Shown: in pieces, positions 4,246 through 33,303 of the stretch
Layout of the letters: each line of letters begins with the position of its first letter
Numbering within the stretch: position 1 is the stretch's first letter
Program-made: the position numbers and the translations under genes
The notes under the pieces: generated by a model
The model's input: the letters and a program-made list of their open reading frames with translations, nothing else
Database searches by the model: none
What the model was told of the DNA's origin: nothing
NCBI RefSeq assembly: GCF_000966265.1
Contig: NZ_LANF01000018.1
Coordinates: 62,001 to 126,000 of the forward strand
Source: Palaeococcus ferrophilus DSM 13482
Lineage (GTDB): Archaea > Methanobacteriota_B > Thermococci > Thermococcales > Thermococcaceae
Reading direction: 5' to 3'
DNA: 64,000 bases

Positions 4246-4258
4246 TCCCAATCCCTCT

Positions 4259-4996
4259 TCACATACTCATTTGTTCGATGCGTGCTTCGAGTCTTTTAAC
4301 CTTTTCCTGAAGTTTCTGCACCTCCTGGGAGAGCTTCACCTCGAGGGGTGTTATCGCGGGACTCTCCCCTGCCCTCTCAATAAGGGCGTCTAGTATGGAG
4401 ATGGCGTTGTTGAGGTATTCGGTTATCCTTATGAGCGCTTCCTCGTGGGTGAGGGTGATGATTCCCTTATCCTTTGTCTTGACGCTTACGGGGAGCTTGG
4501 CCTTGGCCACGTAGCTCATCATGAGCTCCAGCTGCTCCTTATCCTTCTTGGAGGGGAACTTCATGAGCCACAGCCTCTTGAACTCGTCCAGCTCCGCGAG
4601 CACCTTGACGAGGAAGGCGTTGTAGTCGTCCTCACTGACGTAGCCCAGAGCGTAGCCCCTCGCGAAGTCGAGGAGGGTCAGGAGTCGCATTTTCTTGCCC
4701 TTCGCCTCGTCGAGTATCTTTGCCATCCTCTCGTTGAGAACCTCCCTGAGCTTCTTGACGAGCTCCTCCTCGTTCACCGCCTGCGGACCCTTCTGCGGTT
4801 TGGCTATCTCCTTCGCCACATTACGGGAGGGGGCGCTCACTGGAGCCGGTGGAGACGGTTTTTCCTCCCTCGTACTCTTCATGAGGTGGTATATCTCGCT
4901 GGTGTATGCACTCATCATCCTTGAAACGAGGAATACCACGAGCAGCGCGGTTCCAATGAAGCCGCCAAGTATCAGTACTACGGTCGTTGTGTCCAT
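4259..4996 (-). CDS. Membrane-anchored coiled-coil protein of the che operon, function unknown
   Basis: About 245 residues, not assignable to a named family. One N-terminal transmembrane helix (about residues 5-26) is followed by a Pro/Ser/Ala-rich linker (about 48-62), a helical domain, and a C-terminal heptad-like coiled coil (VQKLQEKVKRLEARI). It sits between cheD and cheF, 7 bp from its cheF-side neighbour and 12 bp from cheD, so it is almost certainly cotranscribed with taxis genes. A role tethering Che proteins or the motor switch at the membrane is inference only. The ATG at 4996 follows a G-rich ribosome site. Confidence 0.7.
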   Translation of the reverse strand: MDTTTVVLILGGFIGTALLVVFLVSRMMSAYTSEIYHLMKSTREEKPSPPAPVSAPSRNVAKEIAKPQKGPQAVNEEELVKKLREVLNERMAKILDEAKGKKMRLLTLLDFARGYALGYVSEDDYNAFLVKVLAELDEFKRLWLMKFPSKKDKEQLELMMSYVAKAKLPVSVKTKDKGIITLTHEEALIRITEYLNNAISILDALIERAGESPAITPLEVKLSQEVQKLQEKVKRLEARIEQMSM

Positions 4997-5008
4997 CAAC
5001 AATCCCCC

Positions 5009-5494
5009 CTAAAACACGTTCTCAACAACCTTTCCCCCTGAGACCCTACGCATCCTCACCTTGCCCGTGCCTACATCGAGGTATATCGTCCTTCCGCCCT
5101 TGCCTCCGGTGTCCTCTGCCACGAGCTTTATTCTGCGTTTTTTGAGCTCCCTTTTGGCAACTTCCACGTTTCTCTGCCCGATCTGCAGGCTTTCACTCTT
5201 AACGTTCGAGAACATGTGCGCTCCCCCGAAGAGCTTCGCCTCCAATCTTCTCGGGGAGGCACCCAGCTTTACCATATCCTTTATCAGCAGTTCCAGTCCC
5301 GTGTCCACGTACTTTGCGGGGTTCCCCTTGTTGCCATAGCGGGCGCTCTCGGGAAGGAGCGCGTGGAGCAGGCCCCCTACCTTGGTGAGCCTGTCGTACA
5401 GGGTTATGCCCACACACGAGCCTAACCCGTAGGTGCTTATCACGCCGTTCTTCTTTGCTGCCGCGTAGTCCCCTATCCCAACCTTTATCTCCAC
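5009..5494 (-). CDS. cheD: Chemoreceptor glutamine deamidase CheD
   Basis: About 161 residues. The catalytic Cys lies in GLGSCVGI and the His in GGLLHALLP, with the conserved FGGAHMF and IGQRN segments further on. CheD deamidates glutamines in receptor methylation helices and, in systems with CheC, is captured by CheC to form an adaptation feedback. CheC and receptor genes are in the same operon. The start was set at the GTG at 5494 because GGTGGTG sits six bases upstream and the protein then begins EIKVGIGDY as in the family; the GTG at 5506 is the alternative. Confidence 0.92.
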   Translation of the reverse strand: MEIKVGIGDYAAAKKNGVISTYGLGSCVGITLYDRLTKVGGLLHALLPESARYGNKGNPAKYVDTGLELLIKDMVKLGASPRRLEAKLFGGAHMFSNVKSESLQIGQRNVEVAKRELKKRRIKLVAEDTGGKGGRTIYLDVGTGKVRMRRVSGGKVVENVF

Positions 5495-5532
5495 AAGTTT
5501 CACCACCGTGTAAGATTAAAAGGGAAAAGATG

Positions 5533-7776
5533 TCAGAGCCTGAAGGTTCCCGTTTCCTTCCTGAGATCAAGGACAAGCTGCTTGAGTTCCTCCGCGGCCC
5601 TCTTTAGCTCCTCGATAGCTGCCGTCTGCTCTTCAACTGCTGAGCTGACCTCCTCAGCCGAGGCGGTGGTCTCCTCGGCTGAAGCAGCCAGGTTCTCAAG
5701 GGCTTTAAGGGCCCTGTCAATCTCCTCCTGGGTTCTTAGTATCTGCTCCTTGACGTGGCCGAGGCGTGAGCCGGTCTCGTTTATGAGCTCCGCTATGTTC
5801 GTGAGGTACTCCGTGGTTTCCCTGAGGGTCTCGGAGGATTCGCCCACAACGCTCACTCCCCTCTGGGTGGCGTTGACGGCATCACGAATCTCCTCGGTCA
5901 TCTTCCCTATTATGTCCTTTATGTTGTCGGCTGCCTTCTTGCTCTCCTCGGCGAGGTTCCTGATCTCCTGGGCAACGACTGCGAAGCCCCTGCCGGCCTC
6001 ACCAGCCCTTGCCGCTTCGATAGCCGCGTTGAGAGCGAGGAGGTTTGTCTGTTCTGCTATTCCCGTGATGACGTTGGTTATCTCCTCTATGCTCTTGCTC
6101 ATCTCGTTGACCCTTCCGACGGCGTGCTCTATCTCCCCCATCATCTCCTGGATGCTCTCAATCTGCTGGGCAGAGACCTCTCCCTTCTCCCTGCCCTCCG
6201 AGGCTATGTTGACGACCTCCTGGATGGCACCTTCGAACTCCTCCATGGCCCTAACGCTCTCCTCGCTGACGTCGGCCACCAGCCTTACCCCCTCCGTAAT
6301 CTCGTTTATGTTCTCCTGCTGCCTCTGGGCCTCAATGCTCACCTGCTGAACAGCTTCATTCACCTGGTTGATGGCCTCTGTGACATCGTTCGCGATCTGG
6401 GCGAGCATGTTGGAGTGCTTTTCGAGCTTGTCCGTGAGGTTCACAATGTTCCCTATCAGCTCCCTCATGTTGGCGCTCATGTTCTTAACGTCCTCTATGA
6501 CCTCCCTCAGTTCACCCTTTGCCTCGACGCTTAGACCGTTGCTGAGGTCGCCCTCCGCCAACCGCTCGAGCTTGTCCGCGATTCCCTGGAGGGTTCCCAC
6601 CATGTCCTTCGACACGGCCTCGAAGGCCTTTATGAGCATTCCAATCTCGTCTTCCTCGAGGTACCTAACACCGCGGAGCTTCTCCTTGACCTCGCTGAGC
6701 CTTCCCTCGGCGAGGGCCTGAGCAGCTGTACCGAGCGCCACCAGAGGTTTGAGGGCCGAACTGACCATCCTGTAGGCCACGAGGATTATTGCGGCTGATA
6801 TCAGGAGGAGAAGGCCTATCATCATGTACACCATGTTCCGTATCGTCTCTCTTGTTGTATTGACCGCGTTTGTTACCCCCTCGCTTACCTCAGCCGTGGG
6901 AACCTTCGCGAAGACGTACCAGCCCGTGCTCGGTATCCTGTGACCGGCTGCAGTTGACTGGACCCCCTGCCACGTATAGGTTACCACATCATGGTCCTTT
7001 CCACTTTTGACTATGTCCGCTACGGGTTTGAGGCTCTCCTGTTCGAAGACGTTTAGCTTCATGATGTATTCCTTGTTGGGGTGGGCGATGATGAGGCCAT
7101 CCTCGTTGACGACGTAGGCGTAGCCCGTCCTTCCGATCTTAACGTTCTTTATCTGGTCAACGAGGGTGTCTATGAAGACGTCGAGGCCGATGACGCCGAT
7201 AAGCGAGCCGTCCTTGTATATGGGAACCGCGTAGGTTATGACCCACTTGCCGGAGGAAGCGTCCTGGTAGGGGTCGCTCCACACGCCCTCTCCGGCCTTT
7301 ACAGCGGCCTGGTACCACGGCCTCACGCGGGGGTCGTAGCCTGCCGGAAGCTCCTGCTCGGGATAGATGAACATGTTGCCGTTCACGTCTCCAAAATAAA
7401 CGGAGCTTATCTTGCTGTTAGCCGCGGTGATTGCGCTGAAATCCTTCATTAGCATGCCCTCGAGGAGGACGTTGTAGCCAGGGTCGCCGAACTTTACACC
7501 GCTGCTTTCCATATCCTTTATGTCCTCGATCGTGTTGCGCTGGGTTACCACCCCTAGGTTCTCAATGGACATGAAGAACGCTTCAAAGTCGTTTGCGAGG
7601 GCCTCTGACTTGGCGCTCACGGTCTCTTCCGCCCACTGCTGCATCAGGGGGGCGAGGTTCGTGTCCAATTTGCTTGCCATGCTTTTTTCGGTGTAAAACA
7701 TCATGGCACTCGCCAGCACTGCCACGATAACAAACCCCAAAATAACGATGGAAAGGATCTTTTTCTTAAACTCCAC
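5533..7776 (-). CDS. Methyl-accepting chemotaxis protein with dCache sensor
   Basis: About 747 residues. TM1 spans about 7-27, followed by an extracellular dCache domain with the DPRVRPWY signature and a second repeat ending [13 protein letters not shown]2 is near 315-340, then HAMP, then a long coiled-coil signalling domain whose hairpin tip contains [19 protein letters not shown], which contacts CheA and CheW. The sensor resembles those binding amino acids, amines or organic acids; the ligand is unknown. GGAGGTG lies six bases before the GTG at 7776, which I prefer to the GTG at 7785. The 5' end overlaps the 3' end of the upstream cheC. Confidence 0.93.
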
Positions 7777-8401
7777 CTTCTTCACCTCCGGCTTCCCTAA
7801 CCTGTTCCTCCATCCTCTTCACGAGCTTTTCAAAGGATTCCTCATCGGGTACGAGGTAAAAATAGCTCTCAAACCCGATGTTCTCCTCGTAAAAGCGTGT
7901 TTTGAACAGCATGACTTTTTCAACGTGCCTTAAATCGGACCTGTTCAGTTCCTTCTCGATGTCGTAGAGCGAACCTATCGGCTTGGGGGGGCTCAGCGAA
8001 ACCGGCTCCCCAACGAGCTTCGCGAGTATGTCCGTGTAAACCGATATGAGGATGTTGCCCACCTCGGTTATGGCCGACTTCCCCATCTCGTCGAGCTCCT
8101 CAATTCCGGAGGGGTCCATTCCCATCAGTGCCGCGGAGAGGCTTATGGCGCTCTTCGTCGGGAACTGGAGAACGGTTAGGCCGTTTAGGCCCTCCGTGAT
8201 GTCGAAGCCAACTACGAAGCTCTTCGAGATTCCGTTCATTGTGAGGTGCTTGAGGAACTCCACGCGGGAGAGGACCTTCACCTCGGGGGGCTCCATCTCT
8301 ATGGGCCCGCCTATCATCTGGGAGAGGGACGTCAGTGCGTGGCTCATCGCTATGTTGGATGCCTCACGGAATATGTCCTTATACCACTCATCCAGCTTCA
8401 T
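7766..8401 (-). CDS. cheC: CheC-family CheY-P phosphatase (first of two)
   Basis: About 211 residues. Both CheC active-site signatures (S/D-x3-E-x2-N-x22-P) are readable: EASN near residues 14-17 with Pro 23 positions after the Asn, and SAITEVGN in the second half with the same spacing. The family dephosphorylates CheY-P, and some members bind CheD. Intact E/N pairs in both halves suggest an active phosphatase. Its ATG overlaps the stop of the preceding cheC as ATGA, indicating translational coupling. Confidence 0.9.
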
Positions 8402-9021
8402 ACCATCCCCCCCGTGAGTTTCTCTATGACTTTAACCATGTCCTCGGGCTTAGGGAGTATGAAGAAGTGCTCCTTGAACTCGATGCCCTCGATGCTTATC
8501 GTAGTGCCGAGCAGTATGGTGTAGTCGCAGTACTGCCCGATATCCGCTAAAGCGAAGTCGAGGATTGCCGGCAGGAAGTCCACGGCTATGCTCGGCGGCG
8601 TCTGCTCTATGGTGAGCCCCAAGAACTCACTGAGTGCGTTCGCGTAAGCTGAAATCAGTATGTTCCCCATTTCCTCGATGGCGGACTGTACCATCTCGTC
8701 GAGCTCCTTGGTGGTTCCGGATTCCTGCATCATCATGAGGTCGAAGAGCCTGCATGCATCCTCAAAGTCGAGTACGAAGAAGGCGTGCCCGCTGAACTCG
8801 TTTCCAAGTCCAACGTAAACCGCCACAACTACGTCCTCGCCGACTTTCTCGGGAAGTGCCTTAATGGCCGTCACCTCGAGTCCGGGGACGGTGATGTTGA
8901 CGGGGTGCCCTATCATCTCGCTGAGCGCGTCAGCGGCCCTTGATGCCCCTATGTTGAACGTCTCGAGCAGGGCGCTCTTTTCGAATTCGCCCAATTCCTT
9001 GATGGCCTTATCATATCCCAC
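8398..9021 (-). CDS. cheC: CheC-family CheY-P phosphatase (second of two)
   Basis: About 207 residues, paralogous to the adjacent downstream gene. The signatures SALLETFN and SAIEEMGN are each followed by Pro at the expected 23rd position, so both predicted catalytic sites are intact. Having two cheC genes is common in archaeal taxis loci, where one copy interacts with CheD or CheF and the other mainly acts on CheY-P; which is which cannot be read from sequence. The GTG start at 9021 is inside the end of cheA and is preceded by GGAGGT. Confidence 0.9.
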   Translation of the reverse strand: MGYDKAIKELGEFEKSALLETFNIGASRAADALSEMIGHPVNITVPGLEVTAIKALPEKVGEDVVVAVYVGLGNEFSGHAFFVLDFEDACRLFDLMMMQESGTTKELDEMVQSAIEEMGNILISAYANALSEFLGLTIEQTPPSIAVDFLPAILDFALADIGQYCDYTILLGTTISIEGIEFKEHFFILPKPEDMVKVIEKLTGGMV

Positions 9022-11299
9022 CGCCTATACCTCCCAGCAGGCTGTTGATGTCAATTATGAGGACAACGCTTCCATCACCGAGTATCGTGGCCCCGGCAAA
9101 TCCCCTCAGGTTCGAGAGGCCCTTTCCAAGGGACTTGATGACGATGTCCTTCTTGTGGAGAAGCTCGTCAACCCTGAGTGCTATCTTCTGGGCCCCGAAG
9201 TCCACGATAATCGCCGGGAAGTCCTCCACATCAGGTATTTCAAGGTTGAAGAGCTCGTGGAGTGAGATAAGCGGTATTATCTCTCCCCTGAGCACTATTA
9301 CCTCCTTGCCTCCAATGGTCTTGAGGTCTTCCCTTTTGACCTCTATCGTTTCGAGGATGTTGTTTATCGGGATAGCGTATGTCTCGTCCCGCACCTTTAT
9401 GAGCAGGGCCTGTATGATGGCCATGCTTATCGGGAGCTTGAGGGTGAAGGTGGTTCCTTTTCCAACCTCCGTCTTGACGCTTATGCTCCCGTTGAGGGCC
9501 TTAATAACGTCCTGAACGACGTCCATTCCGACGCCCCTTCCTGAAACGTCCGTGACCTTTTCAGCGGTGCTGAAGCCGGGCATGAAGATCAGGTTTATGG
9601 CCTCCTCGTCGCCCATCTCGGCGGCCTGCTCGGGTGTAATGAGGCCCTTCTCGATGGCCTTCTTCTTCACCTTCTCGGGGTCTATGCCCTTACCGTCGTC
9701 TCTCACCACGATAACCACGTGGCTCCTCTCGCGCTTGGCTATGAGCTCCAGCTTTCCGGCACGCGGCTTTCCAAGCTTCTCCCTCTCCTCCGGTGGCTCA
9801 ATGCCGTGGTCTATCGCATTCCTAAGGAGGTGGACGAGAACATCGCCGAGCTTGTCGAGGATTGTCCTGTCAACCTCTATCTCCTTGCCCTTCATGATGA
9901 ACTCGACTTCCTTGCCCTCCTTCCTCGCGAGGTTGCGAACCATGCGCGGGAACTTGTTAAACACTTCAGCAACCGGCGTAAGGCGCATCTGCATTATCTC
10001 ATCCTGGAGCTCCGCCATGAGGCGCGAGGTTGTTGAGAGGCTCTCAAGGAGCTCCCTATCACCGAGTCTCTCCGCTATCTGCTCCAACCTGCCGCGGTTT
10101 ATCACGAGCTCACCGACGAGGTTCATGAGCTTGTCGAGGTGGGCCACGTCAACCTTGATGAGCTTCGACATCTTGACCTTCTCGCGCTTTGGTGCGGGGG
10201 CAGCCTGTGCAGCCTGTGCCGTTTTCTTCTCTTCCTCCGGAGGCGCCTCCGGTTTCGTTTCCTCCGCCCCGGCGACGGTGACGCTCTCCACGTCGGGGTG
10301 CTTCATGATTGACTCCCTAATCTCCTCGAGGGGCCTCAGGGGAACCATGGACACCTCGAAGTAGTACCCCCCAATTAGCTCACCGTTCTGAAGCTCCTCT
10401 TCTGAGGGGTTTACCTCGAGTACACTGGCCGATTTCTTGAGGTCCTGAAGGATCAGGAAGGAGCGTATGCCCTTGAGTGGAGCATCTTTCTGAAGGTTGA
10501 CCCTGAGCCTGACGGTCTCTCCTCCTTTCCCCTCCGGTTTGGGGGTCTCCGAGACTTCTCCACCTATCACGACATCTTTAACCTCGGGGTGCCTTGTTAT
10601 GACCTTTTTAAGCTCCTCGGGCGGGAACTCGCTTCTCACCTTGAACTCAAGCTCATTCTCTTCGGCCGAGCCGTCCTCTATCACCTTCCTCTCGGGCTTC
10701 GTCCAGAGAACTTCCCCCATCTCCTCAAGGTCGTTGAGGATGAGGAATGCCCTGACACCTTTGAGCTGTGCCTCCGGGTGGAAGATTACCTTAATATGGT
10801 ACTCCCTGCCGGCACCTGGGGCTTCCTCTTCCTTCTCTTCCGCCTTTTCCTGAGCCTCCTCCACTTTCTCCTCTGTCTTGGGCTTCTCCCTCTTGTACCC
10901 CTTGAGGAGCCTGTCCGCCTCCGCAAACAGACCGCTGACATCGAAGTCTCCTTCACTCCCCGTTTCCTCGATGCTGTCAATCATGCTCTCTATGGCCTCG
11001 ATAAACTCGAGAACGAGGTCTACAACCTCTGACGTGGCCTCAACGACCCCATTCCTTATGGCGTCGAAGAGGTTCTCCATTTTATGGGCGGTTTCACTGA
11101 GCTTCATGAATCCCATTGTCGCTGCAGTCCCCTTGAGGGTGTGAGCGTCCCTGAAAATCTGGTCAATGCTCTCCTTTTTGACGGCCTCGTCCCCGCTTTT
11201 AACGGCATCTTCAAGCTTCAGAACAGCGTTGCTTATGCTGTCTATCCTGTCCCTCGCATCGGCAAGAAACTCTCCAATGTACTGGGACATGTCCTCCAT
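9011..11299 (-). CDS. cheA: Chemotaxis histidine kinase CheA with two P2-like domains
   Basis: About 762 residues. The N-terminal Hpt (P1) domain carries the phospho-accepting His in AHTLKGTA. Two P2-like CheY-binding modules in tandem follow, marked by LKGVRAFLILNDL and LKGIRSFLILQDL. A Pro/Ala-rich linker leads to the P3 dimerisation helices, the HATPase domain (NAIDHGIE, DDGKGI, GRGVGMDV) and a C-terminal CheW-like P5. It autophosphorylates in receptor arrays and passes phosphate to CheY and CheB, whose genes are immediately upstream. The ATG at 11299 has GAGGTGA upstream. Confidence 0.95.
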   Translation of the reverse strand: MEDMSQYIGEFLADARDRIDSISNAVLKLEDAVKSGDEAVKKESIDQIFRDAHTLKGTAATMGFMKLSETAHKMENLFDAIRNGVVEATSEVVDLVLEFIEAIESMIDSIEETGSEGDFDVSGLFAEADRLLKGYKREKPKTEEKVEEAQEKAEEKEEEAPGAGREYHIKVIFHPEAQLKGVRAFLILNDLEEMGEVLWTKPERKVIEDGSAEENELEFKVRSEFPPEELKKVITRHPEVKDVVIGGEVSETPKPEGKGGETVRLRVNLQKDAPLKGIRSFLILQDLKKSASVLEVNPSEEELQNGELIGGYYFEVSMVPLRPLEEIRESIMKHPDVESVTVAGAEETKPEAPPEEEKKTAQAAQAAPAPKREKVKMSKLIKVDVAHLDKLMNLVGELVINRGRLEQIAERLGDRELLESLSTTSRLMAELQDEIMQMRLTPVAEVFNKFPRMVRNLARKEGKEVEFIMKGKEIEVDRTILDKLGDVLVHLLRNAIDHGIEPPEEREKLGKPRAGKLELIAKRERSHVVIVVRDDGKGIDPEKVKKKAIEKGLITPEQAAEMGDEEAINLIFMPGFSTAEKVTDVSGRGVGMDVVQDVIKALNGSISVKTEVGKGTTFTLKLPISMAIIQALLIKVRDETYAIPINNILETIEVKREDLKTIGGKEVIVLRGEIIPLISLHELFNLEIPDVEDFPAIIVDFGAQKIALRVDELLHKKDIVIKSLGKGLSNLRGFAGATILGDGSVVLIIDINSLLGGIGGGI

Positions 11300-11304
11300 A
11301 CCCC

Positions 11305-12372
11305 TCACCTCGGTACCTTCCTAAGGGCCATCACCACTGTATCCGCTATTTTATCAAGGGGCACAACGTGGTCAACAACCCCGAGCTCTATCGCGGCCTT
11401 TGGCATGCCGAAGATTATTGAGGTCTCCTTGTCCTGCGCTATCGTGATGCCTCCTCGCCTCTTTATCTCCGCAAGTCCTGCTGCCCCATCGCGTCCCATA
11501 CCCGTCATGATGACACCAACTGTTTTTCTGCCGAATACCCCTGCAACGCTCTTCATCATCGGATCGGCCGCGGGCCTCACCCCGTGGATTTTGGGCCCCT
11601 TGTAGAGCTTTATGGTGGGCTTCCCGTTTCTCATGGTAACCTCCATGTGGTAGTCACCTGGGGCTACGTAGGCCCAGTCCTGATGGACGACCTCACCGTC
11701 CTCGGCCTCCTTCACGTTGAGCTTCGATATCCTGTCGAGCCTCATCGCGAAGGATTTGGTGAACCCGGGGGGCATGTGCTGAACCAGCAGGAGGCCCGCA
11801 TCAAGCTCCCCGGGAAGTTTCTCGAAGACCTTCAGCAGGGATTGCGGCCCACCGGTGGAGGCTGCTATTGCAACGGCCCTCCTTGCTACCTCTCCCTTCT
11901 TCCTCACCTTGCGGAGCTGCTCGCGGAGAACCCTGTGGCGCTTGAACTGGAGGAAGCGCGAGGGGACCTTAGCGGCCTCCTTCACCTTGGCGATTATCTC
12001 GTCCTTGAGCTCTCTCATGTTTATCGAGATGGATGATGATGGTTTGGGTATGAAGTCAACGGCGCCGTACTCGAGGGCCTTTATCGTCGCATCGGCACCC
12101 TCCTGGGTCAGGGCACTCACCATTATGACCGGCCGGGGGTACTTGCTCATTATGAACTTGAGGGCATCAAGCCCGTTCATGCGGGGCATCTCGATGTCGA
12201 GGGTCACCACGTCGGGCCGCTCGCTTTTGACCTTCTCAATGGCCTCAACTCCGTCCCTGGCCTCGCAGCACACCTCTATCTCGGGGTCGGACTCCAGGAT
12301 ATCCCGGAGCACACGGCGCATGAAGGCGGAATCGTCTACTACGAGCACCCTGATCTTCTTCCCTAGGGGCAT
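11305..12372 (-). CDS. cheB: Protein-glutamate methylesterase/response regulator CheB
   Basis: About 355 residues. The receiver domain has DD near residues 13-14 and the phospho-acceptor Asp in TLDIEMP. After a linker, the methylesterase domain shows the Ser of AASTGGP, the His of VQHMPPGF and the Asp of MTGMGRDG, the complete catalytic triad. It removes methyl groups from receptors (and can deamidate Gln) once phosphorylated by CheA. GGTGATCCT precedes the ATG. It is tightly spaced between cheY and cheA. Confidence 0.95.
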
Positions 12373-12382
12373 AGGATCACCT

Positions 12383-12745
12383 TTAAGACGAAAGAACTCT
12401 GTTGACCTCCTCTATCACCTTCGGCGCCTGGAAGGGCTTCACTATGTAACCCTTGGCTCCGCTCTTGAGGGCCTCCATGACCTTGGCCTCCTGTCCAACG
12501 GCGGTGATCATGATGATCTTTGCGTTGGGGTCAACCTTCATGATCTCCTTAACCGCCGTTATGCCGTCCATCTCGGGCATGACAATGTCCATCGTAACCA
12601 GGTCGGGTTTGAGCTGCTGGTACTTCTCCACGGCCTCTTTTCCGTTGCTTGCTTCCCCAACTATCTGGTGTCCGGCCTGCATGAGTATCTTCTTAACCAG
12701 CATTCTCATGAACGCCGCGTCATCAACAACGAGAACCTTTGCCAT
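12383..12745 (-). CDS. cheY: Chemotaxis response regulator CheY
   Basis: A 120-residue single receiver domain with the acidic pair in VVDDAAF, the phospho-acceptor Asp in TMDIVMP, a Thr/Ala switch region (MITAVG) and the conserved Lys in VKPFQ. It shuttles phosphate from CheA to the motor; in archaea it docks on CheF and the archaellum rather than FliM. The start ATG directly abuts the cheR stop codon, and the ribosome site GGAGGTG lies inside the end of cheR. Confidence 0.95.
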
Positions 12746-13576
12746 TCACACCACCTCCGGTTTTTTCACGTATATCCTTGCCACCAGGTCGTGGAGCTTG
12801 AACAACCTGGAAGCGCTCCCAAGGATCGTCTCGGTCTTGCCGAGGATTAAATAGCCGTGATCCTCGAGGGAGTCATAAAGACGACGGAAGACCTCTTCCT
12901 GAGCCTGCTTCGTCATGTAAATGAGCACATTCCGTATGAATATCATGTCGAACCCTTTGGGGTACTCGTTGGAGAGGAGATTAAAGTGCTGGAACTTCAC
13001 GTAGCGCCGAAGCTGGGGTGAAACCCTGTAGTGGTCGCCCATGGGAAGGAAGTACTTTCTGATGAGGTGCTTGGGGACGCTCTTCTCTACAACCTCCTTT
13101 GGGTACGCGCCTCTGATGGCGGTGTTCAGGGCCTCTCTATCAATGTCGGTTGCAAGTATGGAGAGCTTGTAGCGCCTTATGTCATCCCCTAGGAACTCGT
13201 TGAACATCATGGCTATGGAGTAAGGTTCCTGGCCCGTGGAGCATGCGGCGCTCCACACCCTTATCGTGGTGCTGTAGTGCTCTTTTTTGAAGCTGATCAG
13301 TTCGGGGAGTACCTTTCTCTCCAGGGTCTTCCAGACTATGGGATCCCTGAAGAACTCCGTCACGTTTATTGCCACGGTGAGGAGAAGGTCATCGAGCTCC
13401 TCCTTGTTCTTCCTGATGAGCCTGTAATAGTCCATGAAATCAGAGATGCCCAGCTTTCTCATTCTGGCCCGTATTCTTCTGAGTAGGTAGGAATCCTTGT
13501 ACGCATTACTATCTGTTCTCAAATGGCGAAACAGCTCCTGCTTTATGAGCTGATACCCCCTATCGTTGACTTCCAT
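12746..13576 (-). CDS. cheR: Chemotaxis protein methyltransferase CheR
   Basis: About 276 residues. An all-helical N-terminal domain (about 1-75) precedes a SAM-dependent methyltransferase with NVTEFFRDP, the SAM-binding WSAACSTGQEPYS and FIRNVLIYM motifs. It methylates receptor glutamates, opposing CheB. This is the first gene of the ten-gene minus-strand taxis operon. The start was set at the ATG at 13576, six bases after GGAGGAGA; an upstream in-frame ATG at 13615 lacks a ribosome site and lies upstream of the likely transcription start. Confidence 0.95.
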   Translation of the reverse strand: MEVNDRGYQLIKQELFRHLRTDSNAYKDSYLLRRIRARMRKLGISDFMDYYRLIRKNKEELDDLLLTVAINVTEFFRDPIVWKTLERKVLPELISFKKEHYSTTIRVWSAACSTGQEPYSIAMMFNEFLGDDIRRYKLSILATDIDREALNTAIRGAYPKEVVEKSVPKHLIRKYFLPMGDHYRVSPQLRRYVKFQHFNLLSNEYPKGFDMIFIRNVLIYMTKQAQEEVFRRLYDSLEDHGYLILGKTETILGSASRLFKLHDLVARIYVKKPEVV

Positions 13577-13819
13577 GTTGTGTCTCCTCCCTGAGATTGG
13601 GAATAATTTAAACATATTAATCTTTCGTTGAATTTCTTACAAGAATTATGGTTTTCCCCTTAAAAAATCATTACGTGTATGTGTGTATGTAGGTGCATAT
13701 GTAGGCGGTTACGTGCTCACTTTAAATCAAAATTACGGAGGTTTAATAAAAAATCCAGTCGAAAACCTTTTATGCCACTACTTGAATATTAACCAATAGG
13801 CATGTAGAAATATTGGGAA
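13577..13819. promoter_or_regulatory. Divergent promoter region of the taxis locus
   Basis: 243 bp between cheR (minus) and the second receptor gene (plus). On the minus strand a TATA-like TTTAAAT at 13606-13613 would start transcription just ahead of the cheR ribosome site. On the plus strand a BRE/TATA (GAAAACC then TTTTATG, 13761-13774) precedes the receptor by about 50 bp. Between them is a GT-rich block at 13672-13715, with TACGTG at both ends and TATGTAGG repeated with a 12-bp period. The region is AT-rich and has no ORF of note. Confidence 0.6.
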
Positions 13820-15190
13820 ATGTTTAAAAGATTTCCGCTTAAGTCGCAATACCTGCGAGTCATGGTGAGGACGATGAAGGCTACGACAATAGGTGTGGCA
13901 ACTCTTCCACCCGTGGTTACAGGAGTCTTGGCCTACGCTGGGAACGTGCCCCTTGGACTGATCGGAGGAATCGCAGCGGGAGTCGTTATGGCCGCGTACC
14001 TCGATACGAAACACTCCCGCAGGGACCGCTATCGCATGGTCAAAAACGTGCTCCAGCGGCTCAGCAGGGGAGAGGAGGTCGAGATACCTCCCGAACTCTG
14101 GGACATCAAGGAGTATCTCATAGCGTTGAGCGCGGGAGAGAGGGGTGAGATAGCTCCCTTATTGGAGGATTTACAAAGGGTGGCACGCGGCGACCTAACG
14201 GGCAAGCTCCCACCCACCTCCGCGCTTCTCAAGGTCTACAACGACGTCAAGAAGAACTGGATTGAGATGCTGGCAGGGACAAAGGCCGTGCTTGAAGAAC
14301 TCAGGGATGAACTCGAGAACGTTCGGGAGGCTTCTTCCTCAATTGAGATGCTGGAGCGCACCTACGACGCCCTAAACGAGCTGATATCACGCCTTGAGAC
14401 ACAGAGTGTAAAGATAGCCGAGCTCAACGACCACATACAGGCGCTCTCGGCCGCTATTGAACAGATAAGCACCCAGACACAGCAGGTCGCGGAGTTCACA
14501 ATGGAGTCTGCCAACGCCGCCGAAAAAGGAAAGGAGATATCTGACCAGGCCGCACTGAAGGTCGAGAAAATAAACGACGTTAGCAAGGAAATGGAGCAGG
14601 CGGTGAGCATACTCTCCGACTACTCCGAGAAGATAGGTCAGATCGTTGACGTCATCACGGACATAGCAGAGCAGACAAACCTTCTCGCTCTCAACGCGGC
14701 CATTGAGGCCGCTCGCGCCGGTGAGCAGGGAAGGGGCTTCGCGGTGGTCGCCGACAGCGTGAGGGAGCTGGCGGAGCAGTCGAGGAGTTCCGCAAAGCAG
14801 ATAGGGGACCTTATAAAGGAGATGCAGGACAGCGTTGGTGGTGTCGTTGCCTCAATCCATGAGAACGCCAGGGTTACACAGGAGGTCGGGGAGTCAATAC
14901 AGCACCTCATAGCGGCCTTCGACGACATCGCGAGGAGGGCCCACGAGATAGCCTCGATGGTGCACGAGATATCCAACGGCGTTGACCAGCAGGCGAGCGC
15001 GGTGCAGTACCTGGTAAACGCCGTTGAGGAGATATCATCCGTTAACATGGAGCTCTCGGAGACGGCCCAGCAGGCTGTGGACGTTTCGAGTGACGCTGTC
15101 TCAAAGGTTGGTCCTCTTAAGGCTACCTTCAACCGCCTTGCGGGGAGGTTTGAGGAGATTGTGGGCATGATCAGCCGCATCAAGGTGTGA
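13820..15190 (+). CDS. Methyl-accepting chemotaxis protein, membrane hairpin type without periplasmic sensor
   Basis: About 456 residues. Two hydrophobic segments (about residues 22-40 and 44-60) are joined by only a few residues, so almost nothing is exposed outside. A charged region with a HAMP-like helix pair follows, then the MCP signalling domain with hairpin tip [19 protein letters not shown]. Lacking an external ligand domain, it probably senses an internal or membrane-related cue (energy state, redox or a partner protein), as inferred from topology. It is divergent from cheR and followed by cheW. No strong ribosome site precedes the ATG. Confidence 0.9.
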
Positions 15191-15200
15191 GGTGATTTCA

Positions 15201-15638
15201 ATGGCGGAAGTCCAGGTTGTGGCATTTAAGGTTGGAAACGAGGAGTTCTGCCTCGAGATTTCCAAGGTCAGGGAAATTAAGGAAATGATGCCCATAACGA
15301 GGGTGCCAAACGCCCCGGACTACGTGGAAGGGGTCATAAACCTCAGGGGCCAGATAACCACAGTGGTCAACCTCAAGAAGAAGCTCGGCTACTACGAGGA
15401 CGAGGATATCAGCAACAAGAAGATCATCATCGCGGAGGTCAAGGGGGAGATTATAGGCATAATCGTTGACTCCGTCTCGGACGTGGTGACGCTCACGGAG
15501 GATCAGATCGAGCCGACCCCCAAGACCCTGGTATCCAGGATGGACACCCGCTTCATAAAGGGCATAGCCAAGATCAACGAGGGGGAGAGACTCCTCATAA
15601 TGGTTGACCTTGAGAGGCTCTTCGGAGAAGAGTGGTGA
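15201..15638 (+). CDS. cheW: Chemotaxis coupling protein CheW
   Basis: About 145 residues in a single CheW fold, with the characteristic VEGVINLRGQI segment and ending in VDLERLF. It bridges receptors and the P5 domain of CheA in signalling arrays. The ATG at 15201 is preceded by GGTGAT (15191-15196) and lies 10 bp after the receptor stop, so the two are cotranscribed. Its stop codon abuts the stop of the convergent coiled-coil gene. Confidence 0.95.
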   Translation: MAEVQVVAFKVGNEEFCLEISKVREIKEMMPITRVPNAPDYVEGVINLRGQITTVVNLKKKLGYYEDEDISNKKIIIAEVKGEIIGIIVDSVSDVVTLTEDQIEPTPKTLVSRMDTRFIKGIAKINEGERLLIMVDLERLFGEEW

Positions 15639-26303: not shown

Positions 26304-26756
26304 ATGGCTACGGTTTATGACGTTCCCGGTGATTTGCTCGTTGAGAGGGTCGCCCAGGCCCTTAAGGAGGTTGAGGCTATAAAGCCGCCCGAGTGGGCGC
26401 CCTTCGTGAAAACCGGCAGGCACAAGGAGAGGCTTCCCGAACAGGACGACTGGTGGTACTTCCGTGTTGCCAGCGTCTTCAGGAAGGTCTACGTTGACGG
26501 ACCCGTTGGTATAGAGCGCCTTAGAACCTGGTACGGGGGTAAGAAGAACCGCGGTCACGCTCCCGAGCACTTCTACAAGGCCAGCGGGAGCATCATAAGG
26601 AAGGCCCTTCAGCAGCTCGAGAAGGCCGGGTTCCTCAAGCAGATACCCGGCGAGGGAAGGGTGGTTACTCCACAGGGCCAGGCCTTCCTTGACAAGGTTG
26701 CCACCGAGCTCAAGAAGGAGCTTGAGGAGCAGATTCCGGAGCTCAAGAAGTACTGA
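26304..26756 (+). CDS. rps19e: 30S ribosomal protein S19e
   Basis: 150 residues, the family's usual length. Conserved segments include the N-terminal [29 protein letters not shown] and the winged-helix-like end with [11 protein letters not shown]19e is an archaeal/eukaryotic small-subunit protein needed for 40S/30S head maturation. The ribosome site GGGAGG lies at the end of the YhbY gene. In related genomes it is commonly near PDCD5; here an AT-rich insertion of about 2.4 kb separates the two. Confidence 0.96.
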
Positions 26757-26790
26757 GCTCTTTGACTTTCTTTTGGCCTACCTCTTTTTG
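26757..26790 (+). terminator. T-tracts after rps19e
   Basis: Successive pyrimidine-rich T-tracts follow the stop codon (CTTTGACTTTCTTTTGG, then CTCTTTTTGG). No hairpin is evident. This fits an archaeal T-tract terminator separating the ribosomal operon from the AT-rich insertion. Confidence 0.35.
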
Positions 26791-26949
26791 GCTGGATTCA
26801 GGGAATACTCCCCTTTCTATGGTTTTTTGAAAATTAAAACTTGCTTTCATTTTTGCATACTACTTTTAATAGTCTATAAGTTTTTAATAAAAAGGGTTTT
26901 ATATGTTTTGGAGCCACAGTATTGTGAAAATACTTGGGAGGAACGCAAG

Positions 26950-27828
26950 ATGTCGACTTTTGGCTTGTGGTGGTTTAAGTGGAATGGTTCGAATTACGAG
27001 TCAAGAATGAAAGTTGGAAGTAGAGAAGCAACAGTGCAGGACTTTAAAAACAGGGGCTTCGATTACTTAGTAACAGCGGATAGCACACCATTTAACGGAG
27101 CGTATTTGAGCGGAGAGGGAAGTGGAATAGAATTCAGCGGGCATCTTTATGATAATGGCTATACCGACGGCAGAAAATTGGCAACTTTTCTGAAAAACAA
27201 TCTTCAAGGGATAGAATATTTAGCCCCAATACCATATTATAAGTACAAAACTCCAAGCAATATTGAAAACGCCCGCGATTACTGGAGGGGTCTTAGTTAT
27301 ACTTATGGGTGGATTGATGGAGTGGTTTCAGTTGACAGTCCCTATTTGGGGGGGTTTTACTGGGACTTAGAAAATCCGACCCAAACTTATGGAACTTCAA
27401 GGTACATATCCACCTTTGAATTAAATGCAATTCGGGGAAGGATTCTTGAAAATGATAGGGAATATGGGTTGGAGCTCAAATTCACGTGGGTACCGACTCT
27501 TAGAGGAAGGAGTGTCAGTCAGTTAGAAGCCTTTAAACAATATATAATGGAGGCAGCTGAATACTTTGATTATGTCTTTTTCCAACCTCATTATTACCAA
27601 TGTCAGAATTGCTCTATTGAGGATTTAGAATCGCTTTTAGAATGGCTATACAACTTTCACGGGGAAATTAACAATGTGTATGTCGAATTTGAGGCAGATA
27701 AAGCAGTTTGTGGGGAGTACGAGAACTGTGGCTGTGGTACAGGGCAGTGTTGCATATCTAAAGCATGTGAATATTCCGAGGTAATACAGCTCAATTCATA
27801 CAATGAGCTAGTTCAATATAAGGCATAA
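26950..27828 (+). CDS. TIM-barrel glycosidase-like protein (DUF4855-like), accessory
   Basis: About 292 residues, AT-rich. Barrel-like strands carry aromatic and acidic residues: DYLVTADS, GGFYWDLENP, KFTWVPTL, YVFFQPHYYQ and VYVEFEAD. The order resembles DUF4855-type proteins, thought to be carbohydrate-active; this is a pattern judgement, not a search result. Near the C-terminus a cluster of seven Cys (CGEYENCGCGTGQCC and one more) suggests metal binding or disulfides. No signal peptide is seen after the ATG at 26950, which has GGGAGGAA upstream and a TATA (TTTTATATG) about 50 bp upstream. Confidence 0.6.
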   Translation: MSTFGLWWFKWNGSNYESRMKVGSREATVQDFKNRGFDYLVTADSTPFNGAYLSGEGSGIEFSGHLYDNGYTDGRKLATFLKNNLQGIEYLAPIPYYKYKTPSNIENARDYWRGLSYTYGWIDGVVSVDSPYLGGFYWDLENPTQTYGTSRYISTFELNAIRGRILENDREYGLELKFTWVPTLRGRSVSQLEAFKQYIMEAAEYFDYVFFQPHYYQCQNCSIEDLESLLEWLYNFHGEINNVYVEFEADKAVCGEYENCGCGTGQCCISKACEYSEVIQLNSYNELVQYKA

Positions 27829-27891
27829 CTATTTTAGCACAGATTTGAGGGTAGTTGAGACAGTTAGACAACATTGCCCGGGGTGGTAGGC

Positions 27892-28995
27892 ATGAGGAAA
27901 CGGATTTTATCCTTTCTTGTTCTTTTTATGCTCTCAACCTTGCTCCCATTAGTTAGCTCTCATCCCGGTGTTATCATTAGGGGGGTAAACATAATCAGCG
28001 GAGGGAATGATGCTTTTATAATAGTTAGTTGGGGAATTGATGAGTATGATTTTCGGAGGGATATTTACTATTTTAACGGAACCCTAATTCATTTTTACCG
28101 CTCTGGAAACTGGGGTGTTGAAAATGTGGCAAATTCAAGTGTAGTTATGGACAGCGCTTTTTTAATGAGGGATAATGCTTCCTGGCTGTTCCTCCGTCCG
28201 TACTATGTTCCCGAGAATAATACAAGGGCAGTTGAGGTTTATCGGTTCTCCAATGGCTCGTGCGGATTACTGGGAAAAGTAACGGTACCCCTCGGCAATT
28301 ACTCCTCCTCTACTGTGCAAGTTTATTATGAGAAAAGGGCGTTTGCAGTTAGGATGGAGGGACTAACAGGTAAAGCTGTGTACAAATACAAAATTGGGGG
28401 GGATCGCATTATACCGGAGCAAATTGAAGGTTTTCCCGAGAAATCCAAAGAGTATTATGCTTATGAAGAAGGTGTACCTGAAGGAGGCTTCTATCTTGGC
28501 TACAACGGGTATGCTTTCAGTGGCTCCAAAGTTGTTGAAATACCTCATCATGTGATTGAAGAGATTTTGAGCTATCTAACAGTAAAAGGGGATATTTATG
28601 CTTTTCATTCTGCCTTTGTGGGGAATGGAGTGCTCCTATATTATCCATATCCTCGTCATGTAAACGGCACCTCTCTCACAGATTTTTCTGAGCTTTTGGT
28701 GTATTTTTACAACGACACCCTGGAACCTGTCAACTTAAGAGTGGATGATCTAGATAGGTTTGGCTTTGTCGGCGCTGTTAGGTGCAGCTCAACACTTTAT
28801 ACTGGCCCAGCTTCAAACAAGGAGGTAAGTAGCCCCGCTAAGATGAAAGAAATAATGGGTTCTGCTAAAACACCGACTGAGACCATAGACACCATTAAAA
28901 CCATAAGGGGGATGGGAAAAGGGGAAGTTCTGGGACTGGCATTTATCGCGGTGATAGCCTTAATAATCTTGGTTTTGAGAGGGAGGAAGGGATAA
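27892..28995 (+). CDS. Secreted, C-terminally membrane-anchored surface protein, function unknown
   Basis: About 367 residues, AT-rich. A signal peptide (RKRILSFLVLFMLSTLLPLV, ending near SSHP) is followed by a beta-rich ectodomain with many N-glycosylation sequons (NGT, NSS, NAS, NNT, NGS, NYS). A Ser/Thr/Lys linker precedes a C-terminal TM helix (GLAFIAVIALIILVL) and a positively charged tail. It follows the barrel protein by about 60 bp and probably shares its transcript. GGGGTGG precedes the ATG at 27892. No homologous family is recognised. Confidence 0.65.
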   Translation: MRKRILSFLVLFMLSTLLPLVSSHPGVIIRGVNIISGGNDAFIIVSWGIDEYDFRRDIYYFNGTLIHFYRSGNWGVENVANSSVVMDSAFLMRDNASWLFLRPYYVPENNTRAVEVYRFSNGSCGLLGKVTVPLGNYSSSTVQVYYEKRAFAVRMEGLTGKAVYKYKIGGDRIIPEQIEGFPEKSKEYYAYEEGVPEGGFYLGYNGYAFSGSKVVEIPHHVIEEILSYLTVKGDIYAFHSAFVGNGVLLYYPYPRHVNGTSLTDFSELLVYFYNDTLEPVNLRVDDLDRFGFVGAVRCSSTLYTGPASNKEVSSPAKMKEIMGSAKTPTETIDTIKTIRGMGKGEVLGLAFIAVIALIILVLRGRKG

Positions 28996-30452: not shown

Positions 30453-31382
30453 ATGAGGAACAAGCTCGTTGTGGTTACAGGCGGTGCAGGGTTCATAGGC
30501 TCCCACATCGCGGAGGAACTCAGGAATGACAACGAGGTTATTGTGATAGACAACCTCTACACGGGAAGGGAGGAGAACGTTCCGGATGGCGTTTCCTTCG
30601 TGAGGGCTGATGTAAGGGACTACGGAGCGATAGCCGAGCTGATAAGAGAGGCGGACTACGTCTTCCACGAGGCGGCGCAGGTGAGTGTCGTCGAGAGCAT
30701 CGAAGACCCGGTTTTCACGGAGGAAGTGAACGTTTTGGGGACGCTGAACATACTAAAAGCCCTCCTCGATGGTCACGGGAAGCTGGTCTTCGCCTCCTCG
30801 GCGGCGGTCTACGGCGACAATCCGAACCTGCCGCTCAAGGAAAGTGAAAGGCCCAGACCCCTCTCGCCCTACGGCGTTACCAAGTGGGCAGCGGAGGAAT
30901 ACCTCCGCGTTTTCCACGAGCTCTACGGTCTTCCGGTCGTTGCGCTCCGCTACTTCAACGTCTTCGGGCCGAGACAGGGTGCCAACCAGTACGCGGGGGT
31001 GATAAACATCTTCATAAACCACGCGCTGAAGGGAGAACCCCTCGTTATCTTCGGCGACGGGAAGCAGACGCGCGACTTCATCTACGTCAGGGACGTGGTT
31101 AAGGCAAACATCCTCGCGGCGGAGAGCTCGGGGGCGGACGGTAGAGTCTTCAACGTGGGCACCGGGAAAAGTACGAGCGTGCTTGAGCTCGCGACCAAGG
31201 TGCTCGAGATAACCGGCTCCAACGGCTCGATACTCTTCGACAAACCGAGACCCGGCGACATAAGGCACAGCCTCGCGGACATCGGCGAGATCAAAAGGCT
31301 CGGCTTTAAGCCGGAGTGGAGCCTCGAAGAGGGGCTGAAGAAGACGGTGGAGTGGTACAGAACTACCTCCGGGATTTCCTAA
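30453..31382 (+). CDS. galE: NAD-dependent sugar-nucleotide epimerase, UDP-glucose 4-epimerase type
   Basis: About 309 residues. It is an extended short-chain dehydrogenase with the NAD-binding TGGAGFIGS at about 9-17, the active-site Ser/Thr region VFASSAAVYG, catalytic Tyr and Lys in SPYGVTKW, and RYFNVFGPRQ typical of GalE-like enzymes. It likely interconverts UDP-glucose and UDP-galactose or the N-acetyl forms for glycan synthesis; substrate choice cannot be read. The 3' end overlaps the convergent signal-peptidase gene by 20 bp. Confidence 0.88.
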   Translation: MRNKLVVVTGGAGFIGSHIAEELRNDNEVIVIDNLYTGREENVPDGVSFVRADVRDYGAIAELIREADYVFHEAAQVSVVESIEDPVFTEEVNVLGTLNILKALLDGHGKLVFASSAAVYGDNPNLPLKESERPRPLSPYGVTKWAAEEYLRVFHELYGLPVVALRYFNVFGPRQGANQYAGVINIFINHALKGEPLVIFGDGKQTRDFIYVRDVVKANILAAESSGADGRVFNVGTGKSTSVLELATKVLEITGSNGSILFDKPRPGDIRHSLADIGEIKRLGFKPEWSLEEGLKKTVEWYRTTSGIS

Positions 31383-32628
31383 GTGCCCCCTCTGGTGAGA
31401 AGTCCCCTCTGACGAGAAGCTCCAGGCTGGCGAAACTATCCGTGTTCCCTTTTTCCACCGCTTTGACGGTTCCGTACATGCTAACTGCTTTTGTGGGCCC
31501 TCCAAAGGAGACCTCGAAGCACCTCAGGTCGAGGAAGACGTCGTACGTTAAGATGCCGTCATCAACCCTTCCAAGGTAAACCCTCACGTCCCCGTAGTTC
31601 CCGGTTTTTGTGCCCATTCCGAGCTTCTGAACCTCAAGAACCATTGAGGGGCTCGGGAATGGCGTTCTCTCTGAGGAGGTAACCACGAGGTTGAGCTCGT
31701 CCATGAGGGCGTTCCTCGTCCTTACGGGGGCGGTCAGATTCAGGGCCACGTAGTAGCCCGCGGGCAGGGGAGATGTAAGCGTCACGTTGCCGACGCCATC
31801 AACCCTACCACCTCTAATGAAGATGGTGTAAACCTCGCTTCCCGCGGGGAGCTCCGCGCTGAAGTTCCCGGAGTAAACGAGACCAACGCTGTCTATTGGT
31901 GCCGTTCCATCCCCCACGGGCACTCCAAGGAGGTAGACGATGTAGTAGTACTCGTAGGGCACGCAGACCTGGCCGGAGGAAACGGGACTCACCACGGCTC
32001 CCGTCCCCTCACCTATGGCCTGCGCATCAAGCTCCAGGGGCGCTGCTAAGGAGTAGTTTGAGAGCACGAGAAAGAGCAACAAAAGGCCTTTTTTCCTCAT
32101 GTGGTGGACGACTTTTTTTCTTCTGACCTGGACAGCGTCCCTAGTGGGCCTCAAACTCCTGTGCCTGCGCGTGCTCCCCTCGAGGTATGTTCTCATGGTA
32201 AGGTACGCCAGTGCCCCCATGAGCACTGGAAAGACGAAGGGGTAAACCCTGATTACGAAGAGCGAAAGGGCGCCAAGGCGGGGAAGTCTCAGCACCACCT
32301 TTCCCACCACCCGCTCTCTGCTCACGTCCCACGGGTCAACGTACTCCCTGTTGTCGCCCTTCGTCACGAGGTGGTCTCCCTTGATCGCCACGACCCTGTG
32401 AACTATGAGATACTCCTCACCTTCCATACCGAGCCGGTACATCACCACGTCGCCCTTCTCGATGCTACTGGAGGGAAGAACCACGACCACATCGAGGGGG
32501 TTTATCGTTGGCTCCATGGAATCCGTGAGGATAACAGAGTACTGCACACCGATAAGGCGTAGGGAAAGGGCCGTTAGCGATAGGAGAATCAGAGCATAAA
32601 ACAAAAGGGAAGATAGAGATTTCCTCAT
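31363..32628 (-). CDS. SipW-like signal peptidase I joined in frame to a secreted TasA-like protein
   Basis: 421 codons forming two proteins in one frame. Residues 1-175 are a type I signal peptidase of the archaeal/SipW kind: N-terminal TM, Ser in TDSMEPTI, HRVV with His in place of the bacterial Lys, KGDNR, and a second TM. Residues 177-421 begin with a fresh signal peptide (RKKGLLLLFLVL...SLAAPLELDAQ) and a beta-rich domain like the neighbouring small secreted protein. The junction contains an A7 run; with one A fewer, the peptidase would end at TGA overlapping the second ATG as ATGA. GGAGGG precedes the start. Fusion, slippage site or base error are all possible. Confidence 0.8.
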   Translation of the reverse strand: MRKSLSSLLFYALILLSLTALSLRLIGVQYSVILTDSMEPTINPLDVVVVLPSSSIEKGDVVMYRLGMEGEEYLIVHRVVAIKGDHLVTKGDNREYVDPWDVSRERVVGKVVLRLPRLGALSLFVIRVYPFVFPVLMGALAYLTMRTYLEGSTRRHRSLRPTRDAVQVRRKKVVHHMRKKGLLLLFLVLSNYSLAAPLELDAQAIGEGTGAVVSPVSSGQVCVPYEYYYIVYLLGVPVGDGTAPIDSVGLVYSGNFSAELPAGSEVYTIFIRGGRVDGVGNVTLTSPLPAGYYVALNLTAPVRTRNALMDELNLVVTSSERTPFPSPSMVLEVQKLGMGTKTGNYGDVRVYLGRVDDGILTYDVFLDLRCFEVSFGGPTKAVSMYGTVKAVEKGNTDSFASLELLVRGDFSPEGALRKSRR

Positions 32629-32673
32629 TTGAGCCCTCCTTTATTTAAACAGGACTTATTCTACCCCATGAGC

Positions 32674-33093
32674 TTAAGGCTGAATGGTTGGGCCCTTAAC
32701 GACCACAGCCACGCGGTCGAAGTCGCTTATCGGGACGGCGGAGGTGAAGTCAATCTCGATCCCGGAGCCCGCGCTCAGGTCCGCGGTGAGTTGCTTGGAG
32801 GCGCTGGTGACGAGGGTTCCGCCGTTGTAAAGCTTCACGTAGATGATTGAACCCGCCGGGAGGGTCTCGTTGAACGAGACCGTAACGCCTATCAGGTTGT
32901 CGGGGTTGTTATTATCGAGAACGAAGTTAACGGCTCCCTTTCCCGCGGGGCTCTGGATGGTCGTGGAGCCCTCACCGAGCTTCTGGGCGTTCAGCTGTAT
33001 CGCCGGAACCGCGAGGGCGAAGGTCATCAAACTGACAACAAGGGCCAGGAACAGAGGTGCCATCTTCTTTGATTTCCTTCCAAGGAGGTGCAT
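32674..33093 (-). CDS. Small secreted beta-rich protein, candidate TasA/AbpA-type filament subunit
   Basis: About 139 residues. A signal peptide (APLFLALVVSLMTFALA) is followed by VPAIQLNAQKLGEGS and a beta-sandwich-like sequence. The start of the mature region parallels that of the secreted half of the next gene (APLELDAQAIGEG). The link with a SipW-like peptidase resembles bacterial tasA-sipW loci and archaeal bundling-pilus loci, where such proteins polymerise by donor-strand exchange; the assignment is inference. GGTGAT precedes the ATG at 33093, and a TATA (CTTAAATATTG) lies about 50 bp upstream on the minus strand. Confidence 0.65.
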   Translation of the reverse strand: MHLLGRKSKKMAPLFLALVVSLMTFALAVPAIQLNAQKLGEGSTTIQSPAGKGAVNFVLDNNNPDNLIGVTVSFNETLPAGSIIYVKLYNGGTLVTSASKQLTADLSAGSGIEIDFTSAVPISDFDRVAVVVKGPTIQP

Positions 33094-33303
33094 TTGAATC
33101 ACCCTCGTATTTAATCGCCCCAATGTTAGAAAAAAGCAATATTTAAGCTTTTTTGACCTAAATTTCCAATGGTTTCCCGCGAACATTGAAAATGCTACAA
33201 CGGGGAAACGGGCGGATGATGGGGTAAGCTTACGAATAAGGCAGATAAGTGGAAAAAATTGGAATTCCTAGAGCCCTCATCAAAATTTATACGTTAATGG
33301 GCG

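Follow-up and report, generated by a model that had tools for sequence, protein, structure and literature searches.

A signal peptidase-linked pair of secreted proteins in Palaeococcus ferrophilus and a putative donor-strand filament system of Thermococcaceae

An archaeal type I signal peptidase linked to two homologous secreted beta-proteins was identified in the window analysed here, a stretch of 64,000 nucleotides within contig C18 of the Palaeococcus ferrophilus genome, a 2.2-Mb draft in 23 contigs. Judging from genes and structure models, we consider that this gene set probably belongs to a separate donor-strand-type pilus system of Thermococcaceae, equipped with a cutting peptidase and a capping or adhesin subunit.

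The genes of interest lie on the minus strand in the order prefoldin gene (33750-33304), gene of a 139-aa secreted protein that we call the pilin (33093-32674) and a 421-aa ORF (32628-31363), whose 3' flank is occupied by a convergent galE-like epimerase gene (30453-31382). The 421-aa ORF combines an ER-type signal peptidase (residues 1-176) with an in-frame second signal peptide and secreted domain. A sequence-only reading of this DNA had proposed that a SipW-like signal peptidase is linked here to two secreted proteins, and all three were confirmed between 31363 and 33093. The features are as follows.

33140-33148, minus strand: GCTTAAATA, a TATA-like promoter element some 47 nt 5' of the pilin ATG (archaeal consensus match only)
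33098-33104, minus strand: Shine-Dalgarno-like GGGTGAT, 5' of the pilin ATG (read from the sequence)
32674-33093, minus strand: pilin-like secreted protein, 139 aa, with signal peptide at residues 1-28 and mature end at V29 (sequence, family profile, AlphaFold)
32965-33009, minus strand: candidate donor strand of the pilin, VPAIQLNAQKLGEGS, residues 29-43 (alternating hydrophobic/polar columns; low pLDDT)
32634-32639, minus strand: Shine-Dalgarno GGAGGG, 5' of the signal peptidase ATG (read from the sequence)
32101-32628, minus strand: ER-type (SipW-like) signal peptidase, residues 1-176 of the 421-aa ORF, with Ser37, His77 and Asp92 (TIGR02228, PF10502/PF00717)
32113-32119, minus strand: A7 run at the junction of peptidase and second protein, at about codon 170 (read from the sequence)
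31363-32100, minus strand: second secreted protein, 245 aa, sharing the reading frame of the peptidase, with signal peptide MRKKGLLLLFLVLSNYSLA and mature end APLELDAQAIGEG (sequence, pilin homology)
32005-32043, minus strand: first strand motif of the second protein, residues 20-32 (sequence; pLDDT <50)
31612-31647, minus strand: internal motif copy of the second protein, SMVLEVQKLGMG, residues 152-163, a candidate self-complementing strand (motif scan p=0.003; modelled strand, block pLDDT 77-93)

The pilin gene most likely starts at the ATG at 33093, as read from its upstream signals; a start at 33186 was disfavoured since the TATA-like element (33148-33140) and the Shine-Dalgarno match (33104-33098) sit just 5' of the ATG at 33093. 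Because only 45 nt separate the pilin stop codon from the peptidase ATG, the two genes are probably carried on one transcript. Rfam and tRNA scans of the window returned no matches. Elsewhere in the window, a large chemotaxis cluster recognized from translations occupies positions 3226-15638 of the minus strand (CheC/CheD-like, methyl-accepting, CheA-, CheB-, CheY- and CheR-like proteins and a terminal CheW-like protein), and two neighbouring plus-strand ORFs of 379 and 373 aa at 26689-28995 lie just upstream of the region, of which the second encodes a secreted protein bearing a membrane helix at its C-terminus; neither of these two ORFs has a PHROGs match.

The peptidase part scores 60.9 bits against TIGR02228, above the curated cut-off of 51.85, also matches PF10502/PF00717 and reaches only 40 bits against the Bacillus SipW equivalog model, far under its cut-off of 190. 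The Ser37, His77 and Asp92 columns typical of ER-type enzymes are invariant in the peptidase alignment (A5), and by score and Ser-His-Asp positions the protein is assigned from its sequence to the ER-type (archaeal) signal peptidase I family TIGR02228. A PHROGs search yielded repressor-like matches only, to this same part. Relatives searched with the peptidase alignment amounted to 10 named records, from Thermococcus or Thermococcaceae, and none was found with the whole fused 421-aa ORF; elsewhere, in the genomes examined, the peptidase has a gene of its own. In the deposited sequence the reading frame is open across the junction, through RRKKVVHHMRKKGLLLL. There is nearly an even chance that this fusion is an assembly error, in which A7 is really A6 and two genes overlap as ATGA. 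With A6 the peptidase would terminate in RRKKSSTT, its TGA stop sharing bases with the ATG that follows, as is common in compact gene arrangements, and both the draft status of the genome (23 contigs) and the separate peptidase and subunit genes of every other genome examined point the same way. On the other side, the tail in the deposited frame, RRKKVVHHMRKK, resembles the RRKKIKVYHYRR of relatives slightly further, and the internal ATG is not preceded by a Shine-Dalgarno site when the sequence is read. A real fusion would work topologically, as both the tail of the peptidase and the signal peptide after it would begin inside the cell, and it would constitute an unusual self-processing precursor.

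The mature ends of the two secreted proteins had been noted as matching, and the likeness turned out to be wider: pilin and second protein share 31% identity over 128 aa (BLASTP, E 9e-12), and their family profiles align over 135 columns with 99.6% probability (E 2.4e-24). By these alignments the proteins are homologous across the whole domain of about 125 residues, beyond the tips. In both, a signal-peptidase-I site of A-x-A type precedes the same motif, AVPxIxLxVQxLGxG at the mature N-terminus, in which hydrophobic and polar residues strictly alternate. Among 28 pilins, residues 26-43 are more conserved than the sandwich, at 3.28 versus 2.30 bits per column (p=3e-4); A26, A28, V29, P30, Q37 and G42 are invariant; and positions 32, 34, 36 and 39 are hydrophobic in 28/28 sequences while 33, 35 and 37 are so in at most 7%. 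As far as an alignment can tell, this conservation pattern is that of a strand inserted in a groove, although conservation of the motif could reflect secretion or cleavage instead of assembly. The same motif also begins the DUF2341/lectin-like proteins of a Thermococcus operon, and a second copy is found within two-domain proteins, mostly 110-154 residues after the mature start and directly behind the pilin-like domain. The best internal motif score beats shuffles at p<0.05 in 20 of the 26 two-domain proteins, several of which are closely related; in one of these 20, L095, the best internal hit is elsewhere in the protein. The window protein has its internal copy at residues 152-163 (p=0.003). 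The strand motif is portable, shared by pilins and DUF2341 proteins and present in the interior of two-domain proteins.

Within the phylum, to which the search was confined, the pilin profile detected the family in 51 of 94 Thermococcaceae genomes, spread over three of the six genera, and gave no match in the 21 other genomes searched. A short peptidase of about 190 aa accompanies the pilin in 47 genomes, on the same strand in 47/47, a link well above chance; the Fisher value for co-occurrence is 7e-22 with shared ancestry ignored. Only one of the two was seen in four genomes: in G083 the pilin is placed at the end of a contig, while G050, G051 and G053 are fragmented assemblies. The gap between the genes is below 200 nt in 29 of the 47 genomes and 1.0-1.8 kb in 10, the longer gap being filled by a DUF2341-type protein of about 370 aa in the five loci read (L066, L075, L076, L080 and L082). 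One of the 47, G014 from the Thermococcus group, keeps the short peptidase beside a 32-residue remnant match to the pilin (G014:C1:1421527-1421622) and is apparently a decayed cassette.

Two arrangements recur in Thermococcus. Locus A runs MiaB-like gene, pilin, optional DUF2341 protein, peptidase and cupin, and locus B runs prefoldin, one or more two-domain proteins and galE-like epimerase; orthologues of the second protein adjoin prefoldin and galE. The window has the flanks of locus B and, between them, pilin, peptidase and two-domain protein all together. This merging of loci A and B independently ties the two-domain proteins of locus B to the peptidase-pilin pair. In three of the DUF2341 proteins (L066:6683-7795, L080:5589-6710 and L082:6414-7508) a Cys directly follows the strand motif (IGSC/IESC/IGAC) and another lies near the C-terminus (AECSFN/VECGCN/AECSCN), a pair that, from these positions, might form a disulfide across the protein.

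DUF2341 has been proposed as the tip-adhesin domain of archaeal type IV pili (PMC4858521, Makarova et al. 2016), and this assignment, with the superficial likeness of the MRKKG/LLLL start of the second protein to an archaeal class III signal, raises the question of whether the subunits are prepilins and the cassette a type IV pilus part. We regard this as highly improbable: the invariant A-x-A-V-P is located after the hydrophobic stretch, the pilins lack a K/R-G site, the peptidase linked to them is of type I, and no gene for a secretion ATPase, a TadC-like protein or a prepilin peptidase adjoins the cassette in the loci read.

Structure models were built with AlphaFold from shallow alignments, of 28 sequences for the pilin (A1) and 17 for the second protein (A3). 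In the pilin model residues 53-133 form a sandwich of six strands, and the mean pLDDT of ten-residue blocks is 93-98 across residues 51-130, whereas residues 33-39 and 43-45 have pLDDT <50 and no secondary structure. The models thus predict an incomplete sandwich and a free N-terminal strand, as expected for donor-strand complementation. In the second protein, residues 1-28 have pLDDT <50 and motif 1 is therefore unplaced, while motif 2 (152-163) enters a long strand at residues 155-180 with block pLDDT of 77-96. A placed internal motif and an unplaced N-terminal one are what donor-strand assembly would predict in such models, since an internal copy can complete its own domain and an N-terminal copy needs a partner. 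The modelled internal copy lends indirect support to the proposed insertion of the strand of one subunit into the groove of the next.

The same observations bear on a rival interpretation, that the secreted proteins are separate surface or S-layer-associated glycoproteins or adhesins whose N-terminus serves only export and cleavage by the linked peptidase. The DUF2341/lectin-like relatives do look like adhesins, and the conservation is continuous with the signal peptide. Yet the motif recurs internally at the exact domain boundary, distant from any cleavage site, where it is modelled as a strand, and cleavage has no need of strict alternation; we judge this interpretation unlikely.

The donor-strand pilus that we favour would operate as follows. 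Both secreted proteins would be exported via Sec and cleaved by the co-transcribed ER-type signal peptidase between A-x-A and (V/A)P, exposing the N-terminal strand AVPxIxLxVQxLGxG. A SipW substrate is poorly cut by E. coli LepB owing to residues around its cleavage site (PMC10269814) and, by analogy, it is our speculation that the invariant V-P at P1'-P2' may require an enzyme of its own. The mature pilin would be a beta-sandwich one strand short, its groove being filled by the N-terminal strand of a neighbour to give a thin extracellular fibre. The second protein would be a two-domain variant whose internal motif copy fills its own first domain; with a free donor strand and no open first-domain groove, it may cap one end of the fibre as initiator, anchor or tip. 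The DUF2341 proteins would likewise be end-caps, since a protein that has the strand and either a filled groove or no pilin domain would be confined to one fibre end, and the DUF2341/lectin-like domains on the corresponding proteins of many Thermococcus suggest adhesion. In a bolder version, which we find doubtful, a single portable strand tag at the N-terminus would join pilins, two-domain caps and lectin-type adhesins in the same fibre, unrelated in sequence to TasA/AbpA; in this species a peptidase covalently fused to a subunit would cut it from its own C-terminus, so that peptidase and cap are produced one to one.

The sequence-only reading had gone further and named the locus a candidate SipW/TasA-type filament locus. 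The dedicated peptidase, the beta-sandwich and the free N-terminal strand agree with a donor-strand filament, as far as they can be inferred; membership of the TasA/camelysin/AbpA family found no support in profiles, signal-peptide models and fold searches. Of the features of that family, the window locus has, by its sequence, the linked ER-type signal peptidase, and its secreted proteins match neither PF12389 (camelysin) nor TIGR04088 (SipW-type signal peptide). The same genome supplies a positive control, for it possesses a canonical camelysin cluster on a separate contig (G000:C13:129953-134147, equivalent to L064:5954-10148) that includes TasA-like proteins, a SipW-type peptidase scoring 87 bits against the SipW model, compared with 40 for the window enzyme, and a DUF5305 protein. 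Another weak M73/TasA-like protein of this genome was seen at L063:5814-6416. Searched against PDB, the profile of these camelysins (A6) matches AbpX (9sj2, E 9e-4) and TasA (8aur and 5of1, E about 0.013), while the 28-sequence pilin profile A1 retrieves no TasA, AbpA or AbpX chain at E<=10, and PDB sequence searches with A1 and A3 gave chance-level hits only. No profile-profile alignment was obtained between the window pilins and the camelysins. The PF12389 hits of the genome itself were rejected as part of the window locus, being on another contig.

Structure prediction, the check that had been proposed, returned a free N-terminal strand, and no TasA or AbpA relative among the fold matches listed. 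Foldseek found nothing in PDB at E<=0.001, hence matched no solved donor-strand pilin at that level; the top 50 matches listed are mostly Ig-like and C2-like sandwiches (RhoGDI, MD-1, NPC2, CsgC/CsgH; C2 regions), with TasA and AbpA absent from them, and a search against viral models also gave nothing at E<=0.001. As far as models go, this comes close to predicted folds unrelated to TasA/AbpA, the outcome named beforehand as counting against that assignment. A genuine TasA/camelysin/AbpA (SipW-type) bundling-pilus locus diverged beyond sequence detection would share the gene logic, a peptidase beside a secreted beta protein whose N-terminal strand is free, and AbpA and TasA folds are likewise Ig/jelly-roll sandwiches in the literature. 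We consider it quite improbable in view of the failed PDB, camelysin, TIGR04088, PF12389 and Foldseek comparisons set against a successful control, and of a different genomic distribution, TIGR04088 being present in 14 of 94 genomes and the window pilin family in 51. The lack of any TasA link while the camelysin control succeeds argues that the window locus is a second, separate system of this genome, and it appears to work on a logic similar to that of the camelysin system.

In the literature searched, which did not extend to the primary AbpA and archaeal cannulae papers, no paper was found that connects a signal peptidase with a pilin of Thermococcales in this way. The proposed Thermococcales filament, peptidase-linked, of donor-strand type and unrelated in sequence to TasA/AbpA, is thus apparently undescribed there. 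VARTIG, a Thermococcales Ig-domain module (Makarova et al. 2021, PMC8416519), was set aside, as it is centred on large arCOG07710 proteins and the text mentions neither signal peptidase nor DUF2341. The filament-like cassette is present in about half of Thermococcaceae genomes, in a group of which some species are culturable and genetically manipulable. If the proposal is true, it offers an independent instance of the peptidase-plus-donor-strand design of TasA and archaeal bundling pili, one short motif predicts the proteins capping or tipping the fibre, and a set of unannotated DUF2341/lectin-like proteins is explained.

Among known systems, TasA-SipW-TapA of Bacillus subtilis (camelysin, PF12389) differs in several respects. 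The window pilin has no sequence relation to TasA and is much smaller, with about 111 residues when mature; the second protein is a subunit homologue with an internal strand copy; and the signal peptides have no TIGR04088 match. AbpA of Pyrobaculum calidifontis and AbpX of Pyrodictium abyssi share with the window a hyperthermophilic archaeal host, a proposed donor-strand filament and Sec/SPase I export, but the window proteins gave neither a sequence match to the solved AbpX or AbpA chains nor a fold match, and the true AbpX relatives of this genome lie on another contig. The threads of Sulfolobus acidocaldarius (Saci_0406) also have a small secreted beta subunit cleaved by SPase I, an N-terminal tail strand for donor-strand complementation and a putative cap encoded by the gene that follows (PMC9715654); they differ in belonging to a crenarchaeal family in which a YYY motif comes after the cleavage site and for which no linked peptidase is described, and Saci_0406 was not matched by pilin profile A1 in the PDB sequence search. 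With the DUF2341 tip proteins of archaeal type IV pili the common point is a DUF2341 domain on a pilus-associated secreted protein (PMC4858521), whereas in Thermococcus this domain stands behind a type-I-processed motif, in peptidase-pilin operons without type IV machinery genes. Finally, TapA caps TasA by donation of its N-terminus (PMC10151520), and the end-cap argument put forward here for the two-domain and DUF2341 proteins is the same as that made for TapA.
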